A stretch of DNA of 38,270 bases from NCBI GenBank assembly GCA_018882895.1, contig VERF01000018.1:1-38270 (forward strand). The letters are read 5' to 3'. How positions within the stretch are numbered: position 1 is the first letter of the stretch; every line of letters begins with the position of its first letter. Source of the DNA: Candidatus Kapaibacterium sp. Lineage in GTDB: Bacteria; Bacteroidota; Ignavibacteria; Kapaibacteriales; Kapaibacteriaceae. Below, in pieces: positions 10,518 through 37,953 of this stretch. The notes below the pieces were generated by a model. The model had not been told where the DNA came from. It saw only the letters and a list, made by a program, of their open reading frames with translations, and did not search any database. The position numbers and the translations under genes were made by a program.

Positions 10518-10749
10518 GCAAATTACGGATTACGGATTACGGATTACGGATTACCGAGGACGGATTACGAATTACGGATTACGGATTACGGATTACGAAT
10601 TACGGATTACGAATCAGAACGACAGTAAATCCGTCCTTCGTCCTCCGTCCTCCGTCCTCCGTCCTCCGTAATCCGTAATCCGTAATCCGTAATCCGTAAT
10701 CCGTCCTTCGTCCTCCGTAATCCGTAATCCGTCCTCCGTCCTCCGTTCT
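10518..10749. repeat. Inverted heptanucleotide arrays (GGATTAC / GTAATCC)
   Basis: The left arm (10521-10618) is about 13 units, mainly GGATTAC with GAATTAC and CGAGGAC variants. A short spacer (about 10619-10625) follows. The right arm (10626-10749) is about 17 units in reverse orientation, GTAATCC mixed with GTCCTCC and GTCCTTC. Together they could extrude a long cruciform. The array fills almost the entire gap between the divergent lepA and NTF2-fold genes. Units on one strand fit DRRDKAC like the other arrays in the window. Short open frames across it are repeat translations, not genes. Confidence 0.95.
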
Positions 10750-10756
10750 CTTTTTA

Positions 10757-10776
10757 TTCCGACCCGTCGGTCGGAA
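10757..10776. promoter_or_regulatory. Perfect palindrome, candidate operator
   Basis: TTCCGACC and GGTCGGAA are exact arms around CGTC. The site ends 16 bp before the TAGATTTG promoter octamer of the NTF2-fold gene, so it covers the -33 region. No T-run follows on either strand, which argues against a terminator. The GACC...GGTC core resembles operators bound by TetR-family dimers; the regulator is not in this window. Confidence 0.5.
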
Positions 10777-10792
10777 ATAAGACGGCTATTCT

Positions 10793-10800
10793 TAGATTTG
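10793..10800 (+). promoter_or_regulatory. -7 promoter element TAGATTTG
   Basis: This matches the Bacteroidota sigma-A consensus TAnnTTTG, 44 bp before the ATG of the NTF2-fold gene. It is part of a 14-base block ATTCTTAGATTTGC that recurs exactly at 11207-11220. Confidence 0.6.
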
Positions 10801-10844
10801 CTGCAGTCGGTAACCCCTTCATCACCACATCAGGGACGGATGTC

Positions 10845-11207
10845 ATGGCCAATCCAGATTTCTCGGTTCTCTTCAACGGCATTGATGCCAAGGACCACAA
10901 TGTGTTTCGCGACTTCTTGACCGAGGACGCGCAGTTCCGTTTTGCGAATCATCCGGCCGTGGTCGGACGCGAAGCGATCGTGAGTTTCCTCGAGGGATGG
11001 TTCCAGTCGATTGCCGGGATCAAGCATTCGGAACTCACTGTTCGTCATGGTGAAGGCTTTGCTCTCACCGAGGGAATTGTAACCTATACGCGCCACAGCG
11101 GTTCTTTGCTTGCCGTGCCATTTGCCAATGTTTTTAACATGGTTGATGGTAAGATCAAAGATTATTTGATCTACGTTGACAACTCGACGCTGTATTCTGA
11201 AGCATAA
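10845..11207 (+). CDS. NTF2/SnoaL-like fold protein
   Basis: 120 residues with the layout of the NTF2-like superfamily: an N-terminal helix (VLFNGIDAKDHNVFRDFLTEDAQFRF in pieces), the G-REAIVSFLEGWF helix, and the curved sheet ending in FANVFNMVDGKIKDYLIYVD. Members are small ligand-binding proteins or enzymes such as ketosteroid isomerase-like and polyketide cyclase-like proteins. No diagnostic catalytic set can be assigned, so the substrate is unknown. It is a monocistronic rightward gene with its own promoter, a palindromic candidate operator and a strong terminator, standing between leftward genes. This and the absence of GCCCCYT words here suggest a separately regulated, possibly acquired gene. 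Confidence 0.75.
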   Translation: MANPDFSVLFNGIDAKDHNVFRDFLTEDAQFRFANHPAVVGREAIVSFLEGWFQSIAGIKHSELTVRHGEGFALTEGIVTYTRHSGSLLAVPFANVFNMVDGKIKDYLIYVDNSTLYSEA

Positions 11208-11211
11208 TTCT

Positions 11212-11287
11212 TAGATTTGCAGCTGCATTTCGAGGCATATTTGCCAAGCCCCATGTTCACGCACCGTACATGGGGCTTTCTTTTTTC
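11212..11287 (+). ncRNA. Candidate short transcript (promoter copy to terminator)
   Basis: A second exact copy of the ATTCTTAGATTTGC block, with the TAGATTTG octamer at 11212-11219, starts right at the stop of the NTF2-fold gene and is followed within about 30 bp by a strong terminator. A transcript from about 11225 to 11287 would be about 60 nt and mostly terminator hairpin. It could be a small RNA, or a duplicated promoter fragment with no product. Confidence 0.3.
11246..11287 (+). terminator. Rho-independent terminator
   Basis: AAGCCCCATGT (11246-11256) pairs perfectly with ACATGGGGCTT (11268-11278) around an 11-base loop and is followed by TCTTTTTT. It terminates rightward transcription after the NTF2-fold gene and protects the convergent porin operon. 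Confidence 0.9.
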
Positions 11288-11334
11288 CGATCAGCACGCT
11301 GTGATGCTTTTGCTTTATTGATTGGCCAGTGTTG

Positions 11335-12432
11335 TCAGTTCAGTCGGTAGCTGATCGATATGGTGCCGAATGTATCAGTGGTCTTGAGACCACGCGAAGA
11401 GGGGAATATCTCACTGGCAGACCAAAGCGTGCGCATCTCGGCTCGCAGGATGATGTTGCGTTGAAAGGTCCAATCAATGTTTGTCGAAAGTGACGATGCG
11501 ACAAATCCCATACCCTGGGGCGTGCCCACGATCACCGACATTGGATCTGAAAAGTGTTCTGCTCGGGCAGACACTCGCCAGTTGTCGTGCAGGCGATAGG
11601 AGGCGATGGCTGCAACGCTCCAAACCGTGGCGGTTGAATCGTCAGCTTGCTGTTGCCGTCCTACATCTGCTATCGCGACGCATGTTAGATCCGTGGTTGG
11701 CTTCCACTCTGCCCAGAAGTTGTTGTAGAAGCGCCACGAATCATTCGGCATCGGCCGTTGCAGAGTTGCCGTGCGATCGAACATGTTACCGTAGAACGTT
11801 CCCCAATTGAATGTCATGGTCGAGTCGGGCTTCCACGTGATTCGTGAGCCCCATGCGAGGTCATCATTTGGCGCCACGATACGTTGCCATCCATTTAGGA
11901 TCAGACCTTCGATGGTCAGCTTGTCTGACGGCTGCCAGACAACGGCACCGCCGGTCTCATAGTACGGAGTGGCGTCGGAGCAGTACAGACGCGATAGAAC
12001 GAGGTTCTCCCGTTCGTTGATCGATTCATATCCGATGTGTGAGGGCATGATGCCGGCGCGGATGGCGATCTGCTTCGTTATCTCCATCCCAATCCATGCA
12101 TGTTGGATCGGTTGATAAGCAAAGTCCTCTCCAACATAGTTCACGTCGGCAAACCAACCATTTTGGACCGCAATCGTGGCATGGAAGCCGCGGTGCTCAA
12201 AGCGGAGTCCGAGTTCCATCTGCATCGGGCCGACCCGATCATTCACGGACGGCTGAAGCGTGTAGGATCGTCGTCCGGTAGGCAGATCATTGGCCGAACG
12301 GGAGTAGGCGATTGTTGTGCCACCGAAAACCTTGGTGCCGTCCGACGCAAGCGAGCAGGGCGCAACGATGCAAGCAGCCAGGCCGACAACGAGGAGGCCT
12401 TCGAGACGACGCGCGCGGCAGGGGGCGATCAT
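11335..12432 (-). CDS. Outer-membrane beta-barrel porin (BBP2-like)
   Basis: 365 residues. The ATG at 12432 overlaps the previous stop (ATGA) and gives a basic N-terminus with a hydrophobic signal (LEGLLVVGLAACIVAPCSLA). The mature part is alternating amphipathic strands with many aromatic girdle residues (RFEHRGFHATIAVQNGWFADVNYV; AYQPIQHAWIGMEITKQIAIRAGIMPSHIGYES), and it ends in the beta-signal-like ISISYRLN. The pattern fits the putative beta-barrel porin-2 group. The solute is unknown. It is coupled to an upstream TolB-like lipoprotein gene, so the two may form a surface unit. GCCCCYT words are absent from most of the gene. Confidence 0.75.
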   Translation of the reverse strand: MIAPCRARRLEGLLVVGLAACIVAPCSLASDGTKVFGGTTIAYSRSANDLPTGRRSYTLQPSVNDRVGPMQMELGLRFEHRGFHATIAVQNGWFADVNYVGEDFAYQPIQHAWIGMEITKQIAIRAGIMPSHIGYESINERENLVLSRLYCSDATPYYETGGAVVWQPSDKLTIEGLILNGWQRIVAPNDDLAWGSRITWKPDSTMTFNWGTFYGNMFDRTATLQRPMPNDSWRFYNNFWAEWKPTTDLTCVAIADVGRQQQADDSTATVWSVAAIASYRLHDNWRVSARAEHFSDPMSVIVGTPQGMGFVASSLSTNIDWTFQRNIILRAEMRTLWSASEIFPSSRGLKTTDTFGTISISYRLN

Positions 12433-13364
12433 TGTTCTGATCGCGGTTTGACGACGACCCATGCAAGCTTGCTGGCATCGGCGTTTGCCGTGATGCGAGC
12501 CCCCTGACCTTGGAGGTACAACGACGTCAGCTGTTGAATCCCGAGTTCAGTGCCTTTGATCCATCGCGAAATGGTTCCGTCCTTTGAGAGGAACAGAACA
12601 GACGTGTCCCACAGCCAGCAATAGTCTTCCGCCCCGTTTGGCATTGTCACAAGTACCTGGTTTGGAGTATCAGGTCCGGTTGTGACCATGAGCACGTTGC
12701 GCGTGCTATCGGACTTGTCCACGTACGTCAGTTGACCGCTCGGATGGCGGCGAATGCAACGTCCGATGTTGTTTGCCACGGAAAAGGAAGCGGCCGTATC
12801 AACCCCCAGAATCTCGAGGCGGTGTGGCTGTTTGGCTGATTCATCGCCAACCACGAACACGGCCACCCACGACGAGTCCATCCATGTGTGGTAGCCGATG
12901 CGGGTGTTGGCGATCACCGGTGAAAGGGGCTTGCCATCGGCACTATAGCGCCACAGCTGCTGAGACTCCGTGTACACGCTACCGGTGTCGTTCGGGCGGC
13001 CAACGCGCACCACGGAAAAATCGGTCGTGCCAGGAATGGGCGTCGGCGAAAACTCCTGCTCAGAGGTCGAGGTCAATCGCGATATCGACGATGTTGCCAG
13101 GTCGTACCGGTAGACGTCCGTCAGCCCGCTACCATCGCGATCCGACACAAACAGCAATGCCTTAGAGTCGGCCGTGAACATCGGCTGATTGTCATAGCCC
13201 GGAGCATCAATGACCATCGCTGCATTGCTCACCTCGCCGGTGCGAATGTCGAAATCGGCCATCCATATCTGCGTCTCAGGCAGTGCCTCGGACGTCACCG
13301 TCCGGCATGAAGGAAGCAGGGCGGATACGACGAGCAACGTCAGGATGGTGATTAGGTGCTTCAT
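12429..13364 (-). CDS. TolB/WD40-like beta-propeller lipoprotein
   Basis: 311 residues from ATG 13364 (MKHLITILTLLVVSALLPSC), a lipoprotein signal with Cys20 as the lipidated residue. The body has repeated propeller blades of the TolB/PD40 type (YDNQPMFTADSKALLFVSDRDGSGLTDVYRYDL and similar), expected in the periplasm or at the surface. It is not TolB itself: no Pal-interacting N-terminal domain is seen and tol/pal genes are absent. A 160-bp heptamer array ends 6 bp before the start codon, filling the space to proS. Expression could therefore depend on read-through from proS or on array length. It overlaps the porin gene by four bases. Confidence 0.7.
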   Translation of the reverse strand: MKHLITILTLLVVSALLPSCRTVTSEALPETQIWMADFDIRTGEVSNAAMVIDAPGYDNQPMFTADSKALLFVSDRDGSGLTDVYRYDLATSSISRLTSTSEQEFSPTPIPGTTDFSVVRVGRPNDTGSVYTESQQLWRYSADGKPLSPVIANTRIGYHTWMDSSWVAVFVVGDESAKQPHRLEILGVDTAASFSVANNIGRCIRRHPSGQLTYVDKSDSTRNVLMVTTGPDTPNQVLVTMPNGAEDYCWLWDTSVLFLSKDGTISRWIKGTELGIQQLTSLYLQGQGARITANADASKLAWVVVKPRSEQ

Positions 13365-13370
13365 TTTCAG

Positions 13371-13530
13371 TCTCTCGTCACTCGTCACTCGTCACTCGTC
13401 ACTCGTCACTCGTCACTCGTCACTCGTCACTCGTCACTCGTCACTCGTCACTCGTCACTCGTCTCTCGTCACTCGTCACTCGTCACTCGTCACTCGTCAC
13501 TCGTCACTCGTCACTCGTCACTCGTCTCTG
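13371..13530. repeat. Heptanucleotide array, TCGTCAC/TCGTCTC units
   Basis: About 22 tandem 7-bp units, nearly all TCGTCAC with a few TCGTCTC (complement GTGACGA, that is GAGTGAC/GAGAGAC). The array spans the complete gap between the proS stop and the TolB-like start. It is almost homogeneous, so it is recently expanded or actively homogenised. The rightward open frame with repeated RHSSLVT is only a translation of it. Confidence 0.97.
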
Positions 13531-13533
13531 ACT

Positions 13534-15000
13534 TCAATACGCTCTTGCAAACAGCACGCGCTGAGAGCTTGGCTTTCCTGTGCGAATGCATGTTCCGGCC
13601 TCTTGTGCGTTATTGAGCGGGATGCAGCGGATGGTTGCCTTCGTTTCGTCCTTGATCAGGTCTTCCGTTTCGGAGGTGCCGTCCCAGTGGGCGCTTACGA
13701 AGCCCCCTTTACCATCGAGCGTGGCAACGAAATCCTCCCACGTGTCCACTTGCGTAATGTGGGCATCGCGATAGACGCGCGCGCGCTCGAACATCGAGCT
13801 TTGCACGTCATCAAGCAGTGCCACGATGCTGTTGGCCAGCCCCTCAACGGGAATGCTCTCCTTGGTTTTTGTGTCGCGCCGAGCTACTTCAACGGTTCCA
13901 TTGGCCAGGTCGCGTGCACCGATGGCGATGCGCACCGGAATACCGAGCTTTTCATACTCGGCGAACTTGTAGCCGGGGCGATTCTGATCATCGGTATCGA
14001 TCTTGACTCGGATGCCGCGAGCACGCAAGTCTGATGCGATCTGATTGATGTGCGGATCGAGTTCTTCAAGGGGCTTGGGGATGGGAACGATCACAACCTG
14101 ATGCGGTGCCAGCTTGGGCGGGATCATCAGACCCTCATCGTCCGAGTGGACCATCACAAGAGCGCCCATCAGTCGTGTGCTCACACCCCAAGAGGTTGCC
14201 CACACGTATTCGAGTGTGTTGTCCTTTGAGCTGAACTGCACGTCAAAGGCCTTGGCGAAGTTCTGCCCGAGGAAGTGTGACGTGCCTGCCTGCAGTGCCT
14301 TTCCGTCCTGCATGAGAGCCTCGATGCAGTATGTGTCTTCGGCACCGGCGAAGCGCTCGTTGGCGGTCTTGACGCCTTTGATGACGGGAATAGCCATCCA
14401 CTCTTCGGCGAAGGTCGCATAGACGTCGAGCATCTTGCGTGTCTCCTCGATCGCTTCCTCGCGCGTGGCATGTGCCGTGTGACCTTCCTGCCAAAGGAAC
14501 TCAGCCGTACGCAGGAACAGGCGCGTACGCATCTCCCAGCGCACAACGTTGGCCCACTGGTTGATGAGAAGGGGCAGATCGCGGTATGACTGAATCCAAT
14601 CGCGGTAGGTGTTCCAGATGATCGTTTCCGATGTTGGGCGCACGATCAGCTCTTCTTCGAGGCGGGCCTCGGGGTCGACCACGACGCCGCTGCCGTCTTC
14701 GGCATTCTTCAGACGGTAGTGCGTCACAACGGCGCATTCTTTGGCGAAGCCTTCGATGTGCGCGGCTTCTTTACTCAGAAAGCTCTTCGGAATGAACAGC
14801 GGAAAGTAGGCGTTAACGTGTCCCGTGTCCTTGAACATTCGGTCTAGCGTGTCGCGCATGTTCTCCCAGATCGCAAAGCCATAGGGTTTGATGACCATGC
14901 AGCCTTTGACCGCTGAGTAGTCGGCAAGCCCGGCTTTGCGTACGAGATCGATGTACCACTGCGAATAGTCGTCCGCTCTGGACGTGATGTCTTTGCTCAT
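13534..15000 (-). CDS. proS: Prolyl-tRNA synthetase, archaeal/eukaryal type
   Basis: 488 residues from ATG 15000 ([16 protein letters not shown]). It is a class II synthetase charging tRNA-Pro. The short form without the bacterial editing insertion is evident: [11 protein letters not shown], motif 2 around [35 protein letters not shown], then the anticodon-binding domain ([11 protein letters not shown]) and the C-terminal zinc-binding-like domain ending in the typical terminal tyrosine (FARAY). This type is usual in Bacteroidota and Chlorobiota. The GTAAATTG sequence 7 bp before the start is a weak promoter match. The 3' end borders a heptamer array. Confidence 0.95.
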
Positions 15001-15029
15001 AGGCCGGCAATTTACGGAGCGCAAGCCCC

Positions 15030-15830
15030 CTACCGTTTGCCTTCGAACATATAGACGAGTTGACCGTCGGGGGAGACGTAGATGGCGTTGCGGGGCAACG
15101 AATCCGGACCCGGTATGAGTTCGGCTGCTTCCAGGCCTTGCTCGCGCAGGCGATTGATGCGATTCAGCATGTCTGGCATGAAGTACGTGAAGGCCAGCGA
15201 TGGGATGTCGCGAGCTTCGTGGATGCCGATCTCAGTAAAGCCACTGGTCATGTTCACAAACGAATACGGCTTGTCATCTGCGCGTGCCACGCGCAGGCCC
15301 AGCTTGGTCCACCAAGTCTGCTCCTTGCTCAGCGTGTCGATGGAAGTGCTCAGTTCGGTGAGCTTCCCGCAGATAGGGTTCAACTCTGCGGTAGTGCGCA
15401 CATCGGTCTCGATGCGACGGTCTCGGATCGTAACGAACACGCTGCTTGGTGAGCGCAGACGGATCTCGCGAGTGGCACCGTTTTCGGTCTCTACCTCAAT
15501 TCGGAACCCTTGGGCTACCAGTATTCGCTTCGTTGATTCGAGGTCATCAACGCGGAAGATGATCATTGGCGATGGTTGCGATTTGCGCACGAGTGTGATC
15601 ACCAGCTGACCGTCAGAAAGCGTGAGGGCTGAGTCAACGCGGTCTCCCGGCCTGCGGATCGGTGCGAAGCCCAGACGTGCCCACCACGTAAGCGACTCCA
15701 GCAGATCGCGTGAGGCTAGCTCAATACGTGTTGCCGAAGCAAGGTCGATGGTGCCGCCGGTGGTCTGCGCACTGGACTCAAGAGCGCCTACGATCAGCAT
15801 GATCATTGAAAGAACATGAAATGGTCTCAT
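15030..15830 (-). CDS. Exported VOC/glyoxalase-fold protein
   Basis: 266 residues. A signal peptide ([22 protein letters not shown]) is followed by two repeats that look like vicinal-oxygen-chelate modules. Each begins with a strand and a helix containing LTWWARLGF or QTWWTKLGL and ends in a strand such as [10 protein letters not shown] or [13 protein letters not shown] proteins bind metals and act as lyases, dioxygenases or resistance proteins. The metal ligands cannot be confirmed by eye, and export of such a fold is uncommon. The ATG overlaps the ruvB stop (ATGA), so it is coupled to ruvB without an obvious functional link. Confidence 0.65.
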
Positions 15831-16858: not shown

Positions 16859-16862
16859 CCGG

Positions 16863-16870
16863 CAAACTTA
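16863..16870 (-). promoter_or_regulatory. -7 promoter element of ruvB (TAAGTTTG)
   Basis: On the minus strand TAAGTTTG is followed by CCGG and the ruvB ATG. With this spacing the transcript would start at or next to the start codon, so a leaderless mRNA is likely. No -33 box is evident. Confidence 0.6.
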
Positions 16871-16893
16871 CGACACGTCACTTGGCTGGTGTG

Positions 16894-19456: not shown

Positions 19457-19460
19457 CGAT

Positions 19461-19468
19461 CAAACTTA
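19461..19468 (-). promoter_or_regulatory. -7 promoter element of bamD (TAAGTTTG)
   Basis: TAAGTTTG on the minus strand is separated from the bamD ATG by only four bases, in the 22-bp gap after era. It is the same octamer and spacing as at ruvB. Confidence 0.6.
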
Positions 19469-19478
19469 CAGGTCGTTA

Positions 19479-24798: not shown

Positions 24799-26169
24799 TC
24801 AGATGCCGAGCTTGGAACCTACGCGCCATACGTCACCGGCCCCCATTGTCAGGAGGATGTCCCCGGGCCTGAGGAGGTCTTTTAGCGTCTCGGACACATC
24901 TTCGAGGCGCTCAGCATAGTGAACGTGACGGTGTCCGGCATCGCGTGCCGCATCGGCAATGATCCGCCCACTGACGCCTTCGATGGGCTGTTCGCGAGCA
25001 GGATACACGTCCATCAGGACGATTACATCGGCATTGTCAAACGAGGTTGCGAACTCCTTATAGAAGTCACGCGTCCTGCTATAGGTATGGGGCTGAAAGA
25101 CTGCCACAATGCGCCGATTCCACCCGTTTCTGGCTGCCTCGAGCGTTGCCTGGATCTCTGTGGGGTGGTGAGCATAGTCATCGATCACCAGCACACCGTC
25201 GGGCGTTTCGCCCTTGATCTCGAACCGGCGGTACACGCCGCCGAATTCGGCCAGGGCCTGACGGATCACGTCGGGCGCTACTGCGCATTGCAGCGCCATA
25301 CCGCATGCGGCAAGGGAGTTGAGCACATTGTGCTCACCGGGTACGTTGAGCACGATTCTGCCAAGGGGCTCACCACGGTAGGTCAGGTCGTAGGCACTGC
25401 TTTGCTCGCTGTAGGAGATGTTGCTGGCCCGCACATCGCATTGTGGAGTGGTGCCATAGGTGATGATCACGCGCTTGATATCAGGCATCACGTCGCGCAC
25501 GCCCGGATCATCCAGACACACCAGGGCGGCTCCGTAGAATGGTACCTTGTTGGCAAACTCCGTAAAGGCCCCCTTAATGTCATCAAGGTCGCTGTAGATG
25601 TCCAGATGATCGGCCTCGATATTCGTCACCACGGCAATGGTGGGCAGCAGCTGCAGGAACGAGCGGTCATACTCGTCGGCCTCAAGAACCACCCAGTCGC
25701 CCGCACCCAGTCGCGCATTCGAACCGCCGAGTCCGGTGAGCCGCCCACCTACGATCACGGTCGGGTCCAGGCCCGCCTTCATCATTACCAGCCCGCACAT
25801 CGACGTCGTGGTGGTCTTCCCATGCGTCCCTGCGATGGCCAGCGTGTACTTCAGACGCGAAACTTCGGAGAGCATCTCAGCGCGGCGGATCACGGGAATC
25901 TTGCGCTCCAACGCAGCCAACGTTTCGGGATTCTCCGTTGGACGCACTGCCGAGGAGTACACCACTACCTCCGCCCCTTCGATGTTCGATGCTGCATGAC
26001 CCTTGTAGATCACCGCTCCCATCGAAGCTAAATGCTCCGTGGTGGCACTCTCGGCAAGGTCCGAGCCGCTCACTGCAAATCCCTGCGACAGAAGGATCTC
26101 GGCAATTCCGCTCATACCCGAGCCACCGATGCCGACAAAGTGGATGCGTGAGACTGAGGAAAAGGTCAT
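24799..26169 (-). CDS. murC: UDP-N-acetylmuramate--L-alanine ligase
   Basis: 456 residues, normal for MurC, which adds L-alanine to UDP-MurNAc in peptidoglycan synthesis. The N-terminal Rossmann loop is HFVGIGGSGMSGIAEIL (10-26). The ATP loop is GTHGKTTTT (114-122). EADEYDRSFLQL and NIEADHLD are Mur-ligase signatures, and RRFEIKGE and DDYAHHPTEI mark the C-terminal domain. It starts 3 bp after a TATCTTCG octamer. It is isolated from other division-and-cell-wall genes. A four-helix-bundle cassette borders its promoter. Confidence 0.97.
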   Translation of the reverse strand: MTFSSVSRIHFVGIGGSGMSGIAEILLSQGFAVSGSDLAESATTEHLASMGAVIYKGHAASNIEGAEVVVYSSAVRPTENPETLAALERKIPVIRRAEMLSEVSRLKYTLAIAGTHGKTTTTSMCGLVMMKAGLDPTVIVGGRLTGLGGSNARLGAGDWVVLEADEYDRSFLQLLPTIAVVTNIEADHLDIYSDLDDIKGAFTEFANKVPFYGAALVCLDDPGVRDVMPDIKRVIITYGTTPQCDVRASNISYSEQSSAYDLTYRGEPLGRIVLNVPGEHNVLNSLAACGMALQCAVAPDVIRQALAEFGGVYRRFEIKGETPDGVLVIDDYAHHPTEIQATLEAARNGWNRRIVAVFQPHTYSRTRDFYKEFATSFDNADVIVLMDVYPAREQPIEGVSGRIIADAARDAGHRHVHYAERLEDVSETLKDLLRPGDILLTMGAGDVWRVGSKLGI

Positions 26170-26172
26170 GGG

Positions 26173-26180
26173 CGAAGATA
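26173..26180 (-). promoter_or_regulatory. -7 promoter element of murC (TATCTTCG)
   Basis: TATCTTCG on the minus strand is three bases before ATG 26169. The heptamer array begins three bases upstream of it, so any -33 box would have to be made of array sequence. Confidence 0.55.
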
Positions 26181-26183
26181 GAG

Positions 26184-26295
26184 ACTAGTTACTAGTTACT
26201 AGTTACTAGTTACTAGTTACTAGTTACTAGTTACTAGTTACTAGTTACGAGGTACGAGGTACGAGGTATGAGGTACGAGGTACGAGGTACGAGGT
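26184..26295. repeat. Heptamer arrays ACTAGTT x9 and ACGAGGT x7
   Basis: Two different 7-bp units lie head to tail in the same register; cyclically they are TAGTTAC and GAGGTAC. Within each block units are identical except one ATGAGGT. Confidence 0.97.
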
Positions 26296-26338
26296 GCAGT
26301 GCATGTCACGTTTTGGGTGGGGAGCGCACTAAGCATGT

Positions 26339-26740
26339 ATGAACTCAAAAGACATCATCATGAAATCGCGGGAGGACGGGCCGCTGGCCTACGAATCCAT
26401 AATGCTTGGGCGCCTGGTCCGAAAGCTGTGCCATGCGCTTGCGAAGGGTTACCCGTTAGACCGTCCGCTCCTGTCTCAACTGCTGCGTTGCTCCACTTCA
26501 GTTGGAGCAAACATTCGCGAAGCGAAGTATGCCGAGTCACGAAAGGACTTCATACACAAGTTGAAAGTCGCTGAGAAAGAGCTCGCCGAAACCTACTACT
26601 GGATAGGCTTGCTCGAGAGTGAGCCCTCCGTTCTGCCGCCGGAAATCCAAGAGATTGAGGTGTGTGCACAGCATGTCCTCAAGATGCTCAGCCGCACCAT
26701 TGCCAAACTGAGAGAAAACAGCGCAACCCCTAGTAACTAG
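26339..26740 (+). CDS. Four-helix bundle protein (S23/bAvd-like)
   Basis: 133 residues of the family first seen as intervening-sequence proteins in 23S rRNA genes and related to the Avd accessory protein of diversity-generating retroelements. The signature CSTSVGANIREAKYAESRKDFIHKLKVAEKELAETYYWIGLLE is spread over helices 2 and 3; helix 1 is YESIMLGRLVRKLCHALAKG and helix 4 VCAQHVLKMLSRTIAKLRE. These proteins form basic pentameric bundles that bind nucleic acid. The start is ATG 26339; ATG 26360 is possible. The last codons and the TAG stop come from the right heptamer array. No rRNA gene or reverse transcriptase is nearby, so it is an orphan member. Confidence 0.88.
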   Translation: MNSKDIIMKSREDGPLAYESIMLGRLVRKLCHALAKGYPLDRPLLSQLLRCSTSVGANIREAKYAESRKDFIHKLKVAEKELAETYYWIGLLESEPSVLPPEIQEIEVCAQHVLKMLSRTIAKLRENSATPSN

Positions 26741-26779
26741 TAACTAGTAACTAGTAACTAGTAACTAGTAACTAGTAAC
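26731..26779. repeat. Heptamer array TAGTAAC x7
   Basis: Seven perfect TAGTAAC units, the reverse complement of the left outer array of the cassette. The unit contains stop codons on both strands, and because 7 is not a multiple of 3 all six frames are closed. It supplies the stop of the four-helix gene (26738-26740) and of the convergent nitrilase gene (26772-26774). Confidence 0.97.
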
Positions 26780-27557
26780 TACCAACTCTTCTGTCTCCAA
26801 ACAGATCATTCACCGCATTGATCGCCTTATTGCGCGTGTCTGCCGGTGTGATCTCGGCAACAACAACGGCATCATCGGTGGCGGATGCGTCGGCAAGCAC
26901 CGAGCCGTTGTAAGAATAGATGGCCGTTTGACCGTTGAACGAGACATCTTCGCCGGCGTTGTGATCCGTTCCTGTGCGGTTGGCCACCGCCAGATATACC
27001 TTGTTCTCGAGTGCGCGCACCGGCATGGCCATGCGCCAGACGTGTGTGATGAGGTTGGATGGGCAGGCGATCAGGTCCGCCCCCTTCAATGCAAGTGCGC
27101 GGGCGCTCTCGGGGAAGCGCCAGTCATAACAGATCATCACGCCCAGGTTGCAGTCCAAGTGCGGCAGGTGGGTGACGAAGAACCCCGTATCGCCCGATGT
27201 AAAGCCGAGCGTCTCCTTGTAAAAAAGATGCGTCTTACGATACACAAGGGGGCTCGGTAGCCCCTTGCCGGCGATCAATGCGGAGTTGAAGTACGTGACG
27301 GCGGCCTCGGCGAAGCCGCACACGACCACTTTGCCGGCCTGTTCGGCGGCGGTGATGATCTGCGAGGTGTGCGGACCACCCAGGGGTTCAGCGATGCGGG
27401 CGACCTCTTCGGGGCCGATATGCAGGTAGCCCGAGGTGGCCAACTCCGGAAAGACGATCACATCGGCTTCGATGCGGTGGATCTCGTCGACGATGCGGCG
27501 TGTGTTGACGTCGAGGTCACCAAAGCAGGGGGCGAATTGGACGCAGGCGACGCGCAT
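26772..27557 (-). CDS. Carbon-nitrogen hydrolase (nitrilase superfamily)
   Basis: 261 residues from ATG 27557, chosen over a TTG at 27560 because it overlaps the PAP2 stop (TGATG) and starts with MRVACVQFAP. The catalytic triad is visible: Glu38 in VIVFPELATSGY, Lys108 in VYRKTHLFY, Cys143 in VMICYDWRFPE. Members hydrolyse amides or nitriles, for example omega-amidase, N-carbamoyl or deaminated glutathione substrates; the specificity is open. The last residues (GSY) and stop lie in the heptamer array, so the original C-terminus may have been trimmed or replaced. It carries four GCCCCYT words. Confidence 0.88.
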   Translation of the reverse strand: MRVACVQFAPCFGDLDVNTRRIVDEIHRIEADVIVFPELATSGYLHIGPEEVARIAEPLGGPHTSQIITAAEQAGKVVVCGFAEAAVTYFNSALIAGKGLPSPLVYRKTHLFYKETLGFTSGDTGFFVTHLPHLDCNLGVMICYDWRFPESARALALKGADLIACPSNLITHVWRMAMPVRALENKVYLAVANRTGTDHNAGEDVSFNGQTAIYSYNGSVLADASATDDAVVVAEITPADTRNKAINAVNDLFGDRRVGSY

Positions 27558-30706: not shown

Positions 30707-31956
30707 TAACGATCCTTACCAACATCGCATCGCTCGTGACCGTTCGGTCAGGCGGAGCCCCTTATCTGACCGGTGATAAGATGCGCGATGTGGGGGAGAT
30801 CGCCGGCGGATGCGTTGTGCACGATGAGCACTCGATCCTCTGGGTGGGTGCCAGCGCAGACATGCCTCAGGAGTATCGTCACGGGGCGACGCTGGTGGAC
30901 TGTACGGGGCGCACCGTGATGCCGGGCTTTGTGGACAGTCACACGCACATGGTCTTTGCCGGATCTCGGGCGCACGAATTTGCACGGCGTCTGGCCGGTG
31001 CCACCTACGCAGAGATAGCTGCGGAAGGGGGCGGAATACTCACCACCATGAAGGCCGTGCGCAGCGCAACGGTGGATGAACTTGTCGAGGTGGGACGTCG
31101 GCTGGTGGACTCAGCGGTGCGCCATGGCACGACGACCATCGAGATCAAGAGCGGCTACGGGCTGGACCTCGACAGTGAGCTTCGTCTGCTCGAGGCTGCC
31201 GGACGTCTCAAGCGGGAGGGTCGAGCTCATATTCACGTTACGTTCCTTGGTGCCCATGCCGTGCCCCCTGAATGGCGTCACGACCCCGAGGCATACGTCA
31301 ACATCGTTATCAACGACATGCTTCCAGCCGTCGCCGAGCAGGGCATAGCCGAATTCTGCGACGTCTTTACCGACCGGGGCTTCTTCGACCGTGAGCAGAG
31401 CACTCGCATTCTGCGTGCGGCGCGTGAGCAGGGCCTCAAGCTAAAGGTCCACGCTGACGAGATCGCCCTTGTTGGTGCCTCCGACATGGCCGCCGAGCTT
31501 GGCTGCATCAGTGCCGACCATCTCGAGCACAGCACCATCACAGAGGTCCGCAAGCTCCGCGACGCAGGCGTCGTCTGCACCCTGCTTCCCGGCACGGCCT
31601 ATACCCTGCGTCTGCCATTTCCTGATGCGCGGATGATGATCAGTGAGGGGGCTATCGTGGCCCTTGCCACCGACTGTAATCCCGGTTCATGCTTTACCGA
31701 GAGCATGCAGACCATCCTCTCGCTTGCCTGCATAAACATGGGCATGAGCATCGAGGAGGCCATCGTTGCGGCAACCATCAATGGTGCGGCGGCGCTGGGC
31801 ATCTCACATCTCACCGGCTCGATCGAGTCCGGCAAACGCCCCGACCTCGTTATCTATGACACACCGTCGTACAAAGACGTGGTGTATCATTTTGGGGTGA
31901 ATCATGTGAATGAGACGTTCGTCGCCCCGGCGCAGGCCGGGGCCCATGTGTTTTAA
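30703..31956 (+). CDS. hutI: Imidazolonepropionase with repeat-derived C-terminus
   Basis: 417 residues. HutI opens the imidazolone ring in histidine degradation. Metal ligands start with His80 and His82 in VDSHTHMVFAGSR; GGGILTTMKAVR, EIKSGYGLDL, HVTFLGAHAVPPE, KVHADEIALVGA and ALATDCNPGS are all typical of this amidohydrolase. The start overlaps the previous stop (ATGA). The final residues after FGVNHVNET read FVAPAQAGAHVF, which is the translation of the first type 2 palindrome, and the stop also lies in the repeat. The normal last few residues have therefore been replaced; the active site is untouched. No hutU, hutH or hutG is nearby. Confidence 0.93.
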   Translation: MITILTNIASLVTVRSGGAPYLTGDKMRDVGEIAGGCVVHDEHSILWVGASADMPQEYRHGATLVDCTGRTVMPGFVDSHTHMVFAGSRAHEFARRLAGATYAEIAAEGGGILTTMKAVRSATVDELVEVGRRLVDSAVRHGTTTIEIKSGYGLDLDSELRLLEAAGRLKREGRAHIHVTFLGAHAVPPEWRHDPEAYVNIVINDMLPAVAEQGIAEFCDVFTDRGFFDREQSTRILRAAREQGLKLKVHADEIALVGASDMAAELGCISADHLEHSTITEVRKLRDAGVVCTLLPGTAYTLRLPFPDARMMISEGAIVALATDCNPGSCFTESMQTILSLACINMGMSIEEAIVAATINGAAALGISHLTGSIESGKRPDLVIYDTPSYKDVVYHFGVNHVNETFVAPAQAGAHVF

Positions 31957-32188
31957 TGGGGCATGAAGATGGATCCCGGCCTTCGCCGGGATGACGGGCC
32001 TTCGCCGGGATGACGGGCCTTCGCCGGGATGACGGAACATCGTCGCCCCGGCGCAGGCCGGGGCCCATGTGTTTTAATGGGGCATGAAGATGGATCCCGG
32101 CCTTCGCCGGGATGACGGGCCTTCGCCGGGATGACGGGCCTTCGCCGGGATGACGGAATATCGTCGCCCCGGCGCAGGCCGGGGCCCA
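31921..32188. repeat. 121-bp composite REP-like direct repeats, left cluster
   Basis: Two full 121-bp units (from 31921 and 32042) and a partial third (32163-32188). Each unit has a type 2 palindrome (GCCCCGGC, loop GCAG, GCCGGGGC), a linker with TGTGTTTTAATGGGGCATG, a type 1 palindrome (ATCCCGGC, loop CTTC, GCCGGGAT) and two further 19-bp copies of CTTCGCCGGGATGACGGGC. It starts within the hutI 3' end. Confidence 0.95.
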
Positions 32189-32209
32189 GGATTACCCCTT
32201 CGTTATGAT

Positions 32210-32512: not shown

Positions 32513-32577
32513 AACAATACCTGATTTCACTTGTTCCCACTCTAGAGCAATATTCTTCGGTGAGCGTGACAGTTGCG

Positions 32578-32836
32578 CATGGATCCCGGCCTTCGCCGGG
32601 ATGACGGGCCTTCGCCGGGATGACGGGCCTTCGCCGGGATGACGGGCCTTCGCCGGGATGACGGAATATCGTCGCCCCGGCGCAGGCCGGGGCCCATGTG
32701 TTTTAATGGGGCATGAAGATGGATCCCGGCCTTCGCCGGGATGACGGGCCTTCGCCGGGATGACGGGCCTTCGCCGGGATGACGGGCCTTCGCCGGGATG
32801 ACGGAACACCGTTGCCCCGGCGCAGGCCGGGGCCCA
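32578..32836. repeat. 140-bp composite REP-like direct repeats, right cluster
   Basis: It is built from the same parts as the left cluster, with one extra 19-bp subunit per unit, so the type 2 palindromes are 140 bp apart (32671 and 32811). The last one reads GTTGCCCC where the others have GTCGCCCC. The cluster ends 5 bp before the cysS promoter octamer. Confidence 0.95.
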
Positions 32837-32840
32837 GCCT

Positions 32841-32848
32841 TATCTTTG
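32841..32848 (+). promoter_or_regulatory. -7 promoter element of cysS (TATCTTTG)
   Basis: TATCTTTG, then CACA and ATG 32853. The region where a -33 box would sit is entirely REP-like palindrome, so promoter activity must use or tolerate the repeat. Confidence 0.6.
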
Positions 32849-32852
32849 CACA

Positions 32853-34307: not shown

Positions 34308-35086
34308 TCACGAACGTTACGATCATCGGTGCCGGAAAGGTCGGCACGTCAGTGAAGTTCAAGCTCGGTGATGATGGAATTACGGTTGCTGTCAATCTGG
34401 TGTCTGCCAGAGAGTTCTTGTCCCTCGGTACTTCGGTAATTCCGTCTTCCAGTGCTTCCGTCATCGTCCTCGCTTGCCGCGACTCACAACTCACCGATTC
34501 CGTCGCGCTTCTTGCGGAGCACTACGCGCACGCACTTACGGGTGTGCTTGTTTTGCACGTCAATGGTTCGCGCGGAAGCGATGTGCTTTGCCCCCTGAAA
34601 GAGCACGGAGCGCTGATATCGGCGGCACATCCTTTTCAGACGTTTGCCAAGGCGGATGCGGCACTGCTCGACAGTATCGGATGGGGCGTGGAGTGTGATG
34701 ATGATGCTTGGGAATCAACGGCTGAGTTTGTGAGCCTGACAGGGGGCGTTCCCTTTCGTTTGCCACGGACCGATGCCGTTTCAAAGCGTCGATATCATGC
34801 GGCTGCCGTTGCAGCATCGAACTTCACCTATGCCGCCTATGACCTTGCGCGAAAGCTCGCAGAGGATGTGGACATTCCCGTTGAGACGTTCCTTGCCCCC
34901 ATCATGCGGCAGACAGTGGAGAACGCCATTGAGGCGATACAGCAGGGCCGGCCGTTTCCCATCACCGGCCCCCTCGTGCGGGGTGACATGGACGCCGTGC
35001 AACGTCAGCGCCAAGCCATGCCCGACCAGCTGCGTCAGCAGTACGACCATCTCCTCAATGCTCTGGCCGAAGCGATCGGAAGATGA
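34304..35086 (+). CDS. Rossmann-fold/DUF2520 oxidoreductase-like protein
   Basis: 260 residues. An N-terminal NAD(P)-binding fold (VTIIGAGKVGTSVKFKL, GAGKVG at 9-14) is followed by a helical C-terminal DUF2520 domain (RRYHAAAVAASNFTYAAYDLA; FLAPIMRQTVENA; GRPFPITGPLVRGDMDAV). The family resembles ketopantoate reductase and pyrroline-5-carboxylate reductase, but its substrate is unknown; in Bacteroidota and Chlorobiota it is a conserved single-copy gene. Start ATG 34304 overlaps the cysS stop. The 3' end converges with the TPR membrane protein, with only a short heptamer run between. Confidence 0.85.
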   Translation: MITNVTIIGAGKVGTSVKFKLGDDGITVAVNLVSAREFLSLGTSVIPSSSASVIVLACRDSQLTDSVALLAEHYAHALTGVLVLHVNGSRGSDVLCPLKEHGALISAAHPFQTFAKADAALLDSIGWGVECDDDAWESTAEFVSLTGGVPFRLPRTDAVSKRRYHAAAVAASNFTYAAYDLARKLAEDVDIPVETFLAPIMRQTVENAIEAIQQGRPFPITGPLVRGDMDAVQRQRQAMPDQLRQQYDHLLNALAEAIGR

Positions 35087-35088
35087 GG

Positions 35089-35116
35089 TCCTCCGCAATC
35101 AGTAATCCGTAATCCT
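35089..35116. repeat. Short heptamer run (GTAATCC type)
   Basis: About four units: TCCTCCG, CAATCAG, TAATCCG, TAATCCT in one register, of the same kind as the array at 10518-10749. It codes for the C-terminal RITDY and the stop of the leftward gene. Confidence 0.75.
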
Positions 35117-36769
35117 CCCCAGCCCCTTCCTCAGCATCGCTTCCGTTTCCGGCAGGGGATTGCGCGCAAGCCCTGTTTCGAAGTCGGCAGAGGCTTCGGC
35201 GGGACGCCCGGTTCGCAGATAGCTGATGCCGCGGTTGAGATATGCGTCGGCTGAGGCGTTGCCGAGGTTGATGGCGCTGGTATAGGCGCTGATCGATTCG
35301 TCGATCTTGCCCATCATGCCGGCCAGCAGGCCGAGTCGCTCATAGGCGTCGGTACGGGGCGAGGGGTAGGTGAGCAGCGAGCGAAGATCTTCGTAGGCTG
35401 CCTCGGCGTTGCCTGACTCAAACGAGTGGATGCCTCTGTAGATGTAAATGGGCAGGTAGCCATCGGAGAGGTTCTTGCGACGTATCTCGGCAGGACTTCC
35501 AGTGTTGCCGGAACGCTCTAAAATGCTCGTCCAGAGAGTCTCGGTATCGTGCCACATGCCAACCTGACGGAAGGTGAGCACTCCTTGGGTGACTGTAAAC
35601 ACCGTTATGACACCCCATGCGAGCGATCTCCATTTGCGCATCAACATTGCAACGCCGGAAAGTGCAACGCACAACATTCCGACCATCGGGATGTAGGTAT
35701 ACCGGTCGGCCATGATCACCTGTCCAACAGAAATGATATGCAAGACAAGGATGATGGTGATGGTGTACCAGGCGAGGCCAAGAGACGAGAGACGAGAGAC
35801 AAGAGACGAGAGACGAGAGACAAGAGACGCCGTCTCGCCGGTTGATGTCCAAAACCGTCCCACCACCAACACCAAAACGAACACCGGCATTGCCGCGAAA
35901 GCATAATAGTACCCCGGCATTGCAAATGCGCCACCAACGTGCGGGTAGGGATAGAAGGCGTTCAGGGAAAGGGGCCAGATGAACTTGATCCAGTACATCG
36001 CGAAGCCGTAGGAGGCAATGCCGATTCTCTCTGCGATGCTGAACGTAGCCAAGTCGGCAACTGCGCCGTCGGCGGTTTGAAGGCGGAGGGTGATGAGCCC
36101 CATCACAATAGAGACAACCACGAAGGGGAGTTTCTCAACCACACGGCGCACGGTGAAGCCGCCACCGTGCCAGAGGTCGAGCATCACGAGAACCAGCGGA
36201 AGCACGATCGCCGTCGGCTTTGAGAGGCACGAAAGCACGAATGCTACAAAGCAGAGAGCCAGGGCACTCCTGCGTGGTGCGTCTAGATAGCGCAGATAAG
36301 CAATGATCGACGTCACAAAAAATACTCCGAAGAGTACATCTTTACGTCCAGAGATCCACGCCACGCTCTCTACGTGAAGCGGATGAATGGCAAACCACAG
36401 TGCTCCCAGTTCGGGCAGAAGGTCGCCCCCTATCAGACGTCTGAGCAGCAGTAGGACCAGGATTGAGGTGACGATGTGCAGGGTGAGGTTCACAAGACCA
36501 AATGCTCGTGCATTGCGACCCCACAGTTTGTAGTCGATCGCCAGCGACAGTACCGTTAGCGGATGATAGTTGCTGGCCACCGATGTAGAGGGTGTGAAGA
36601 TCTCCATCACGGTGGCCGACGACATGTTCTTCACCAGCCGCTGATTCGTTACGTACGCATTGTCATCATAGGCCGTGAACTGCTTCGTGGAGTCGAACAG
36701 CTTCCAGTAGGCCATGATCGTGGCAAGTGCGATCAGCAAGGGGGCCAGTTTAAGCAGACGTGTTTTCAT
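35099..36769 (-). CDS. TMTC-like multispanning membrane protein with TPR repeats
   Basis: 556 residues from ATG 36769 (MKTRLLKLAPLLIALATIMAYW). The N-terminal two thirds has about ten membrane helices and the loop AYDDNAYVTNQRLVKN, HPLTVLSLAIDYKLWG and HPLHVESVAWISGRKDVLF, as in the bacterial relatives of eukaryotic TMTC O-mannosyltransferases. The last 140 residues are TPR units (AYEDLRSLLTYPSPRTDAYERLGLLAGMMG in part; YLNRGISYLRTGRPAEASADF). A role in protein or lipid glycosylation is likely from the family. Seven AAGAGAC/GAGAGAC heptamers (35780-35828) are inserted in frame as SLVSRLSSLVSRLSSL in a loop between helices. The C-terminus RITDY is also heptamer-derived. Confidence 0.78.
   Translation of the reverse strand: MKTRLLKLAPLLIALATIMAYWKLFDSTKQFTAYDDNAYVTNQRLVKNMSSATVMEIFTPSTSVASNYHPLTVLSLAIDYKLWGRNARAFGLVNLTLHIVTSILVLLLLRRLIGGDLLPELGALWFAIHPLHVESVAWISGRKDVLFGVFFVTSIIAYLRYLDAPRRSALALCFVAFVLSCLSKPTAIVLPLVLVMLDLWHGGGFTVRRVVEKLPFVVVSIVMGLITLRLQTADGAVADLATFSIAERIGIASYGFAMYWIKFIWPLSLNAFYPYPHVGGAFAMPGYYYAFAAMPVFVLVLVVGRFWTSTGETASLVSRLSSLVSRLSSLGLAWYTITIILVLHIISVGQVIMADRYTYIPMVGMLCVALSGVAMLMRKWRSLAWGVITVFTVTQGVLTFRQVGMWHDTETLWTSILERSGNTGSPAEIRRKNLSDGYLPIYIYRGIHSFESGNAEAAYEDLRSLLTYPSPRTDAYERLGLLAGMMGKIDESISAYTSAINLGNASADAYLNRGISYLRTGRPAEASADFETGLARNPLPETEAMLRKGLGRITDY
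35780..35828. repeat. Heptamer array inside a coding region (RAGAGAC x7)
   Basis: Order of units: AAGAGAC, GAGAGAC, GAGAGAC, then the same three again, then AAGAGAC, so a 21-bp superperiod is visible. In the leftward reading frame this gives a 7-residue protein repeat. A gain or loss of one unit would shift the frame. Confidence 0.95.
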
Positions 36770-36806
36770 GCGTGAGAAATTACAAGATGCCCGCAAACAC
36801 TCGGCG

Positions 36807-36814
36807 TATCTTTG
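36807..36814 (+). promoter_or_regulatory. -7 promoter element of the epimerase gene (TATCTTTG)
   Basis: TATCTTTG lies 14 bp before ATG 36829 within the 59-bp gap to the divergent TPR gene. The spacing is longer than at cysS; an out-of-frame ATG at 36824 is ignored. Confidence 0.55.
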
Positions 36815-36828
36815 CGCGGGGAAATGAT

Positions 36829-37824
36829 ATGTTGACGCAGCAAACGATCTTCATCACCGGAATCGCCGGTTTTATTGGCTTTCACCTGGCCCGACGCCTG
36901 GCGAGTGACGGCTGGAACGTTGTCGGCCTCGACAACTGTAACGACTATTACGATCCGACTCTTAAGCAGGCCCGTCTCGACATCCTTGGAGAGAGCGTCA
37001 CCTTCTATCGGGGTGATCTTGAAGACAAGGGGCTGATTGATTCGATCTTCTCCAAGCACAAGCCCGCCATCGTTTGTCACCTTGCCGCGCAGGCCGGTGT
37101 GCGCTATAGCATCGACAACCCGGATGCATACATCTCGTCGAACATTGTCGGCTTCATGAACATCCTTGAGGTGTGCCGGCACCACAAGCCCCTTCACCTG
37201 GTCTATGCAAGCAGCAGCAGTGTATACGGCATGAGCACGCGTGTACCTTTTGCAACGGATGATCCGGTGGACACTCCGGCCAGCCTGTATGCCGCCACCA
37301 AGCGGAGCAACGAGCTGATGGCGTTCTGCTACAGTCACCTGTACGGCATCGCTGCCACGGGATTGAGGTTCTTCACCGTGTATGGTCCATGGGGCCGGCC
37401 CGACATGGCGTACTACTCGTTTGCCCAGAGCATCATGTCGGGCAAGCCCATCAACATCTACAATCATGGCGAGCTGAGCCGCGACTTCACCTACATCGAC
37501 GATGTGGTTGAAAGCGTCGCGCGACTGCTGCCGATCCCCCCAACGGTCACAGGGGCCTCCATGGGTCAGGCCGGTGTTGCGCATCGCGTCTTGAACATCG
37601 GCAACGGAGCCCCCGTCAACCTCCTCGAATTCGTTGAGATCCTCGAATCCAAACTCGGTCGCTCAGCCGTCAAGAACCTCGTCGACATGCAACCCGGCGA
37701 TGTTGTCCAAACCTGGGCTGACTGCTCCGACCTCTTCGAGCTGACGGGCTTCCGCCCGAACACCCCTCTTGCAAAGGGGCTCGATGAGTTCGCTCAGTGG
37801 TTTCGTAACGCATCCCACGGCTGA
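36829..37824 (+). CDS. UDP-glucuronate 4-epimerase-type SDR
   Basis: 331 residues of the extended SDR family. NAD loop GIAGFIG (11-17), DNCNDYYDPTLKQARL typical of CapI/UDP-glucuronate epimerases, SSSSVYG, catalytic Tyr154 and Lys158 in YAATKRSNE, and RFFTVYGPWGRPDMAYYSF. It interconverts UDP-glucuronate and UDP-galacturonate for surface polysaccharide. The ATG at 36829 follows a promoter octamer. The frame is open upstream only over the divergent gene. The last residues ASHG and the TGA stop lie in a palindrome (about 37814-37833) of the type found in the 91-bp repeats downstream. Confidence 0.92.
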   Translation: MLTQQTIFITGIAGFIGFHLARRLASDGWNVVGLDNCNDYYDPTLKQARLDILGESVTFYRGDLEDKGLIDSIFSKHKPAIVCHLAAQAGVRYSIDNPDAYISSNIVGFMNILEVCRHHKPLHLVYASSSSVYGMSTRVPFATDDPVDTPASLYAATKRSNELMAFCYSHLYGIAATGLRFFTVYGPWGRPDMAYYSFAQSIMSGKPINIYNHGELSRDFTYIDDVVESVARLLPIPPTVTGASMGQAGVAHRVLNIGNGAPVNLLEFVEILESKLGRSAVKNLVDMQPGDVVQTWADCSDLFELTGFRPNTPLAKGLDEFAQWFRNASHG

Positions 37825-37883
37825 AGCCGTAGGACGTGCATGTCATCCCGCGAAAGCCGTCATCCCGGCGTAGGCCGGGATCC
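37814..37883. repeat. Repeat hot spot behind the epimerase gene
   Basis: In order: a single CCCACGGC-TGA-AGCCGT palindrome over the epimerase stop, a partial GTCATCCCG fragment, and a type 1 REP-like palindrome in reverse orientation (ATCCCGGC, loop GTAG, GCCGGGAT). No gene is visible. The elements of all interspersed palindrome families except type 2 abut here. Confidence 0.8.
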
Positions 37884-37953
37884 AAGTGACGAGTGACGAG
37901 TGACAAGTGACAAGTGACGAGTGACGAGTGACGAGTGACGCACAACGCCTAAC
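37884..37953. repeat. Heptamer array RAGTGAC x8 plus two decayed units
   Basis: AAGTGAC and GAGTGAC units from 37884 to 37939, then GCACAAC and GCCTAAC in the same register. It is the reverse orientation of the array at 13371-13530. The decayed units form the first bases of the 91-bp repeat. Confidence 0.92.

Follow-up and report, generated by a model that had tools for sequence, protein, structure and literature searches.

An S23 gene between inverted heptamer arrays

We analyzed the 7-bp tandem arrays in a contig of 38,270 nucleotides from Candidatus Kapaibacterium sp. (GenBank VERF01000018.1; the whole contig is called the window below), which belongs to a genome of 2.57 Mb in 131 contigs (G000, the own genome). 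Two of these arrays face each other around a short open reading frame (ORF) of the S23/23S_rRNA_IVP family (PF05635), located between a Mur-ligase gene and a CN_hydrolase gene, and two others form an inverted pair without a gene upstream of lepA (Table 1). Taken together with the comparisons described below, the scattered heptamer arrays are most likely the arms and the leftovers of hairpin-shaped elements that carry an S23 gene.

Table 1. Heptamer arrays and the S23 gene of the window
Positions	Strand	Feature	Source
10522-10611	+	Array half of gene-less inverted pair (GGATTAC), 5' of lepA	Tandem Repeats Finder
10630-10750	-	Other half of the gene-less pair (GGATTAC/GGAGGAC, minus strand), 18-nt loop	Tandem Repeats Finder
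13370-13526	-	Solo array of 22 units (20 GAGTGAC and 2 GAGAGAC), immediately 3' of a proS-like ORF	
26184-26295	+	S23/IVP element, 5' arm: nine TAGTTAC copies followed by GAGGTAC units	Two joined repeat-finder rows
26339-26740	+	S23/23S_rRNA_IVP (PF05635) gene, 133 aa, predicted four-helix bundle, flanked by both inverted arms	
26730-26781	-	S23/IVP element, 3' arm: seven TAGTTAC copies (minus strand), inverted counterpart of the 5' arm	
35092-35115	-	Weak GGATTAC-like array remnant, score 34	
35781-35829	+	Solo GAGAGAC/AAGAGAC array within ORF 35099-36796	
37885-37940	+	Solo GAGTGAC/AAGTGAC array	

An earlier note on the window had ascribed its arrays to one heptamer grammar, DRRDKAC, with units nearly identical within an array and different between arrays. 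The shared grammar is real, as DRRDKAC is matched on one strand by 83 of the 85 in-register units of the seven strong arrays, compared with 6.2% of all heptamers when any rotation and either strand are allowed. Not every array is uniform: the array at 26184 passes from TAGTTAC to GAGGTAC units, and the one at 10630 mixes GGATTAC with GGAGGAC. A distinct unit for each array was not borne out, since the arrays at 13370 and 37885 both consist mainly of GAGTGAC. This heptamer is also the unit of an S23 element of the same genome on another contig (L034, contig C126). Two features had been missed, namely the second array upstream of lepA and the arrangement of arrays as inverted pairs; the arrays occur in two orientations, and the inverted pairs are 10522/10630 and 26184/26730.

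In a profile search, the ORF between the arms matched PF05635 at 2.4e-16 (60.3 bits, compared with the curated cut-off of 33.8). The two arms share a 52-nt exact inverted repeat around this ORF, and the 3' arm overlaps its final bases. The RNA of the complete element (26184-26781) was predicted to fold into a 52-bp outer stem with the ORF inside (minimum free energy of -241 kcal/mol, z-score of -9.3), and none of 100 shuffled sequences was as stable. The window element thus has terminal inverted repeats that close a stem around an ORF, as in the intervening sequences (IVSs) of 23S rRNA genes, but it does not lie in a 23S rRNA gene. Likewise, none of 80 named S23 loci from other genomes (see below) matched typed rRNA motifs, although this is a weak check.

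The AlphaFold2 model of the window S23 protein (pLDDT of 89.6) predicts a four-helix bundle like those of 2rld and 2gsc, which were the top matches in a Foldseek search. They were followed, with weaker E-values, by the Avd protein (4dwl) and the reverse transcriptase complex of a diversity-generating retroelement (8ub7). The PDB entries of the relatives 2rld and 2gsc contain five chains each. The own genome has seven diverse PF05635 places, six of them above the curated cut-off. Orthologous proteins of 208 aa in G000 (L037, contig C55) and in the congener G009 (L098, contig C60) fall below this cut-off; their upstream arrays are of the GGATTAC type and of the TGATGAC type, respectively, and 9-nt repeats lie downstream.

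Heptamer arrays accompany S23 genes in the genus and the order

The grammar is directional in the own genome, where RRDKAC(DRRDKAC)3 had 395 forward and 514 reverse matches, compared with 3 and 3 for the reversed pattern. Period counts were taken from 328 kb of this genome; these and the other genome samples are contigs chosen by number, of unequal size and non-random. The 328-kb sample contained 27 period-7 arrays, one array each at periods 8, 11, and 12, and none at periods 4, 5, 6, 9, 10, 13, and 15. DRRDKAC was fitted by 23 of the 27 period-7 arrays, whereas letter-shuffled units averaged 3.2 fits and reached at most 9. A shared logo and an excess of period 7 over other periods (27 arrays versus 3 at the other periods tested), on which the earlier note had made its grammar depend, were both seen in the sample. 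Among the congeners, the fit was 6/6 in G009, 6/13 in G005, and 2/5 in G001, so that the grammar appears strong in the own genome and looser around it.

Five S23-positive genomes of the genus, including our own, had 51 period-7 arrays in 782 kb (27, 6, 13, 5, and 0 per genome), compared with one array in 675 kb of five S23-negative genomes; the sixth S23-positive genome, G008, was left out of the array samples. At least two period-7 arrays were found in 4/5 S23-positive and 0/5 S23-negative genomes (p = 0.024). The near-absence of arrays in S23-negative congeners is left unexplained by ordinary polymerase slippage, in which heptamer microsatellites arise and grow locally without any element, and the same is true of the matching inverted arms around one gene family and of the identical units at unlinked loci that are described below. 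Slippage has already been proposed for bacterial heptamers (PMC4692102) and agrees with the array copy number, which differs between near-identical copies (5 versus 3 units, by reading). We consider it a very improbable origin of the arrays, although it probably still adjusts their length.

The association of S23 genes with inverted arrays extends to the order. PF05635 was found in 27 of the 60 genomes, the own genome included, at 72 places. Inverted repeats were scored as exact matches of at least 13 nt between the 300-bp flanks, for the 69 places that had at least 100 bp on both sides; three loci of the order, and three of the 80 named loci discussed below, were dropped because of short flanks. 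An inverted repeat was present at 40/69 places, whereas the direct orientation gave 2/69, and mismatched flank pairs, oriented like the true pairs, gave 4/230 within genomes and 38/4462 between genomes. Tandem arrays make up most of the readable arms. In the sense of the coding strand, purine-rich units usually stand in the 5' arm and their complements in the 3' arm. The arm units differ between elements and include GGGTTTT, TAGTTCA/GGGTTCA, GCGAATA, GAGTGAC, TAGTTAC, TACTGGG, GGATTAC/GGAGGAC, and TGATGAC, among others. In the annotated cases the element lies between genes, several times within operons.

Dispersed arrays at corresponding sites

In the own-genome sample, the dominant unit of 18 of the 23 arrays located away from S23 genes also occurred in the S23 arms of this genome. 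A similar relation was seen in a Phormidium genome, in which three consecutive copies of the arm unit GGGAGTC had 77 matches, compared with 0 in 13 other genomes; by count, these correspond to 27 sites, among which the S23 arms may be included.

We compared two sites of the window across the genus. The region 5' of lepA holds the GGATTAC/GGAGGAC pair in the own genome, a TGATTAC/TGATGAC pair in G009, a GAGTGCC pair in G006, and another repeat in G005; no repeat was present in G002, G004, and G007, and the sequence of G008 consists of Ns there. In both G000 and G009, one S23 gene of the respective genome shares the units of the lepA pair. Upstream of the Mur-ligase gene, S23 elements are present in G000 (TAGTTAC) and G005 (TACTGGG), and gene-less inverted pairs in G001 and G003; G008 has an S23 element of the G005 type one gene farther from the Mur-ligase gene. 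Based on these site-by-site differences in the units, the arms and the dispersed copies seem to change together within a genome.

The window arrays at these two sites (10500-10620 and 26160-26200) stop at a TAnnTTTG-like box, a few bases 5' of the lepA and Mur-ligase start codons. We take this box to be the Bacteroidota promoter element, and arrays that end at it may shift the promoters. An alternative explanation, to which this position lends some weight, is that the arrays came first, as selected host signals that are promoter-like or bind a protein, and that S23 genes insert into or beside them. It is also in line with the gene-less inverted pairs of two congeners at the place where the own genome has an S23 gene, and with the lepA pair of G006, a genome without an S23 match. 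This order of events is at odds with the array-free empty sites read in cyanobacterial plasmids and with unit lengths that track the S23 tree, both presented below, and we regard it as having little likelihood.

Filled and empty sites on cyanobacterial plasmids

On cyanobacterial plasmids, S23 genes lie between nrdB and nrdA, between cas6 and cas4, between cas10 and cmr3, and beside transfer genes. Exact inverted repeats of 11-25 nt were present at seven of the first eight plasmid loci, a set in which one element of a single strain is represented twice; the remaining locus (L376) has an exact repeat of only 8 nt, but visible TCAGGAG/TCAGAAT arms. Two plasmids (L375 and L379) have an S23 gene between cas6 and cas4, and their array units differ. 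S23 genes in cas loci have been reported before (PMC3936711). In Anabaena sp. 90, an S23 gene is located between cas6 and cas4, and a Dolichospermum relative has no S23 gene between the two genes, where another repeat is found instead. The absence from a near relative suggests that the S23 genes within cas operons are insertions.

Filled and empty forms were found at several plasmid sites (A, B, C, D, and the nrd site), and the junctions were read at site A and partly at site C. Among the records listed for site A, three are filled, and six others, at 97.4-97.7% identity, have no S23 gene. In the two filled and two empty records that were read, the insert comprises 428 bp (414 bp in the second record), the flanks are intact, and GTAAT is present at both ends. 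One further plasmid has a truncated remnant of the element at this site. Site C is filled in two plasmids and empty in two; the best split matched 40-42 of 48 bases of the flanks in one of the empty copies and 28/48 in the second. The empty versions read at sites A and C have no array, which indicates that the arms come and go together with the gene. Moreover, alignment of the elements from the two sites, with their arms, gives 77.9% identity over 417 bases, whereas their 600-bp flanks do not align, as predicted by movement of the gene together with its arms. Unrelated sites and empty sites, the two marks of a mobile element, are thus documented for the cyanobacterial plasmid relatives rather than for the window element itself. 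In two Calothrix plasmids, identical blocks reach past the element and were therefore not taken as evidence of transposition.

From these data we consider it likely that the arrays belong to small, foldback-like mobile elements of the IVS type that carry an S23 gene, with the solo arrays as their derivatives.

A common core and a lineage-dependent unit length

A four-protein S23 alignment (A2) served to scan named genomes across phyla; of the 578 confirmed stretches, the best 80 were retained. These loci span Clostridia, Planctomycetes, several proteobacterial classes, Acidobacteria, Bacteroidota, Cyanobacteria, Patescibacteria, and other groups, and they include one Methanophagales archaeon. 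Inverted repeats of at least 13 nt were present at 33/77 loci, compared with 2/154 mismatched pairs and 7/77 loci in the direct orientation. For the 50 loci with at least 11 nt, the period of the arms was 7 in 35 cases, 8 in five, 9 in one, and 10, 14, 15, or 16 in four, and was not callable in five. Period 7 accounted for 22 of 44 loci in the order, with four cases each of period 8, of period 12, and of no callable period. Strict period 7 was accordingly rejected as a law, since arms were scored with units of 8, 9, 10, 11, 12, 13, 15, 16, and 18 nt.

The 40 named loci used for a logo provide 35 distinct heptamers, whose cyclic alignment revealed the core [TC]AG[TG], in which T or C was present in 28, A in 30, G in 33, and T or G in 33 of the 35 units. 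This logo contains 3.98 bits, compared with a mean of 3.12 and a maximum of 3.61 in 100 shuffles. The 24 units of the order (31 loci) gave 4.24 bits, above the shuffled maximum of 3.98, with a logo that differs from the cross-phylum one. DRRDKAC was therefore rejected as a universal logo and, given the cross-phylum core, is the local form of a wider pattern. We also considered whether TAG occurs in the units because it is a stop codon, but this idea is weak, as some of the units have CAG at this core.

Unit length follows the S23 lineage. Many S23 clades of the order have 7-nt units, the group of L080, L081, and L088 has 8-nt units, and another group mostly has units of 10-18 nt. On the S23 tree of 71 rows, from which L065 was omitted because of its broken ORF, the unit-length class of the 40 labelled rows, those with a callable period, required 11 changes, compared with a shuffled mean of 14.5; 9/1000 shuffles were as low. 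A version of the test in which two labels had been altered manually once the data were known gave 0/1000; we do not rely on it.

S23 could be a self-regulator that acts like TRAP, with the arms as the operator on its own mRNA and the dispersed arrays as a regulon rather than as remnants. The pentameric relatives, the single core per unit, the cross-phylum [TC]AG[TG] core, and the closeness of the arms to the start and stop codons would all fit such a role. It is harder to reconcile with one dispersed array that lies inside an ORF, with sister genomes whose arrays differ at the same site, and with the presence of the element at different plasmid sites. As a full explanation self-regulation is unlikely in our view, but it is compatible, as a second role, with mobile elements made of an S23 gene and its arms.

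Proposed origin and fate of the arrays

The following model combines the above observations. A full element would consist of a short S23/IVP gene, encoding an Avd-like four-helix bundle, between inverted arms made of tandem arrays, with a unit usually of 7 nt. Its transcript or single strand would fold so that the arms form one long stem and the gene lies in the loop. Slippage, slipped pairing of the arms, or copying between the hairpin arms may homogenize the units and change their number. S23 would recognize one core per unit, and the geometry of the protein may fix the unit length. Loss of the gene would leave inverted pairs, and loss of one arm would leave solo arrays; both the solo arrays and the gene-less inverted pairs may thus be non-autonomous copies or remnants.

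The earlier note had called for a common generating process in place of independent microsatellites, and this is upheld, in the form of spread followed by local homogenization: units recur between loci and match on both arms. Its other proposal, a polymerase or repair activity that templates heptamers, was not supported, given that unit length varies by S23 lineage and that no match to the reverse transcriptase family PF00078 was found in the own genome or in four of the five S23-positive congeners. Specifically, PF00078 had no matches in G000, G003, G005, G008, and G009, which disfavors retro-templating by a reverse transcriptase; it was found in 4/23 genomes, including G001. For a Y1 transposase as the mover, gene presence by genome showed no link to the arrays: Y1_Tnp is present in 19/23 genomes, including four of the five S23-negative congeners, regardless of S23.

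Several observations weigh against a mobile element built of an S23 gene and its arms. An exact inverted repeat of 13 nt is absent from 29/69 S23 places in the order and from 44/77 named loci. The arms of L043 run in the opposite sense, and the arrays next to the S23 gene of the Pseudanabaena plasmid (L379) are direct rather than inverted. The matching of dispersed units to S23 arms is weak in G009 (1/7) and G001 (2/6) and middling in G005 (6/14). G003 has S23 genes, one of them with 8-nt arms, and yet no period-7 array in 125 kb, where three period-8 arrays were found. Conversely, G006, which is 97% complete, has no PF05635 match, yet its inverted GAGTGCC/GAGTACC pair lies 32-166 bp upstream of lepA and its sample holds one period-7 array. 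Only site A, with GTAAT, shows a clear target duplication, and the own genome, with seven diverse copies, shows no multi-copy burst of the S23 gene. Finally, recognition of the units by S23 is something that we infer, and we know of no movement enzyme in S23.

A broader version of the model is offered more tentatively. S23/IVP proteins might form rings that read a single [TC]AG[TG]-like core in each unit, with the spacing of binding sites on the ring dictating the unit length (mostly 7, and 8, 9, or 12 elsewhere) and leaving the other bases free, so that a separate unit evolves in each element lineage. They would make and spread arrays by protecting or positioning the hairpin RNA or DNA, and most heptamer arrays of bacteria, among them the short tandemly repeated repetitive (STRR) sequences of cyanobacteria, GGGAATC, and perhaps TAACTGA, would derive from one transposase-free system. 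We hold this generalization to be possible but doubtful.

Relation to known systems

The foldback transposons of Drosophila are eukaryotic DNA transposons with a transposase and with long inverted ends made of short tandem repeats. The elements described here share such ends, but they differ from these eukaryotic, transposase-bearing transposons. Galileo is the topic of one paper from that field (PMC3688188). RAYT is a Y1 transposase, and no catalytic activity is known for S23. As in REPIN-RAYT systems (a subject of PMC3116915), a low-copy, diverse gene is flanked by a repeat that is dispersed as inverted pairs, although the repeats here are tandem arrays rather than single palindromes.

The 23S rRNA IVS of Coxiella burnetii contains an S23/IVP ORF and terminal inverted repeats that form a stem; tandem heptamers (GACAGAT) in varying number precede the ORF, and excision by RNase III has been demonstrated for the IVS (PMC4990558). 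The elements studied here resemble such IVSs in the gene family, in a total length of about 430 nt, and in terminal inverted repeats that close a stem with the ORF inside. Unlike them, they lie between protein genes, their arms are long tandem arrays, and their units are also dispersed throughout the genome. Homology of Avd of diversity-generating retroelements with PF05635 has been noted (PMC10053308), in agreement with the predicted fold of the window protein, which matches Avd (4dwl, 8ub7) after 2rld and 2gsc. In contrast to diversity-generating retroelements, which include a reverse transcriptase, the own genome had no PF00078 match.

The STRR sequences of cyanobacteria are heptamer arrays. 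They had been named in the earlier note as an analogue with other sequences, and the analogy turns out to be closer than that, because most of the cyanobacterial S23 genes examined carry inverted heptamer arms of the same design. Other bacterial heptamer arrays are GGGAATC in Xanthomonas, where two genomes contain 70 and 75 close pairs in convergent orientation, GGGGA(C/T)T in Nostoc (both PMC4692102), and TAACTGA in Beggiatoaceae, described with no mechanism (PMC4679880). All of these have the 7-nt period, the mostly intergenic location, and the genome-typical unit in common with the arrays described here; however, the unit here is tied to an S23 gene, and the accessible parts of those sources name no S23 partner. 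Searches of the open-access literature revealed, within the text consulted, no statement that links tandem arrays outside rRNA to S23/IVP genes.

If the interpretation is true, it joins the dispersed heptamer arrays, the orphan S23 family, and the unexplained origin of rRNA intervening sequences, and it gives the puzzling repeat arrays of many bacteria a common origin. With unit length as a readout of the protein lineage, the question would become accessible to direct binding and mobility assays. S23 proteins are widespread and form an orphan family, for which structures have been solved and, to our knowledge, no function has been assigned.

The GGGAATC repeat of Xanthomonas type

Three consecutive copies of GGGAATC were found in one of 369 gammaproteobacterial genomes (G440). 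The family of this genome has S23 genes in 20/59 genomes, at 22 places, 12 of which pass the 13-nt threshold, L359 and L364 only by a match in a coding flank. Mismatched pairs pass in 7/110 cases, because sister elements share units. The S23 gene of G440, a partial profile match, has a 13-nt inverted GGGAATC match and is located between accB- and accC-like genes. Two sister S23 places in the family have carA/carB and nrdR as neighbors; these names, like those of the accB- and accC-like genes, were read from the flank sequence. L359, one of the sister proteins, is closely related to Xcc0516 (3e-44). A reversed control pattern, three copies of CTGAGGG, had 84 matches in Thiohalocapsa halophila (G062, the genome of L268) and represents another abundant heptamer family.

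Other repeats in the window

The array at 35781-35829 is read in frame on the minus strand as an SLVSRLS peptide repeat, and its host ORF encodes a TPR/mannosyltransferase-like protein. The G009 orthologue of this ORF has about 450 bp of other repeats (a GETASA peptide repeat) at the same spot, which therefore does not provide a clean empty site. At 31919-32188 and 32579-32836, 19-nt tandem units (GGCCTTCGCCGGGATGACG) are contained in larger repeats of 121 and 140 nt and constitute a separate, dispersed palindromic repeat family. Finally, a 91-bp tandem repeat of 3.7 copies (37938-38270) reaches the contig end and may be responsible for the assembly break.

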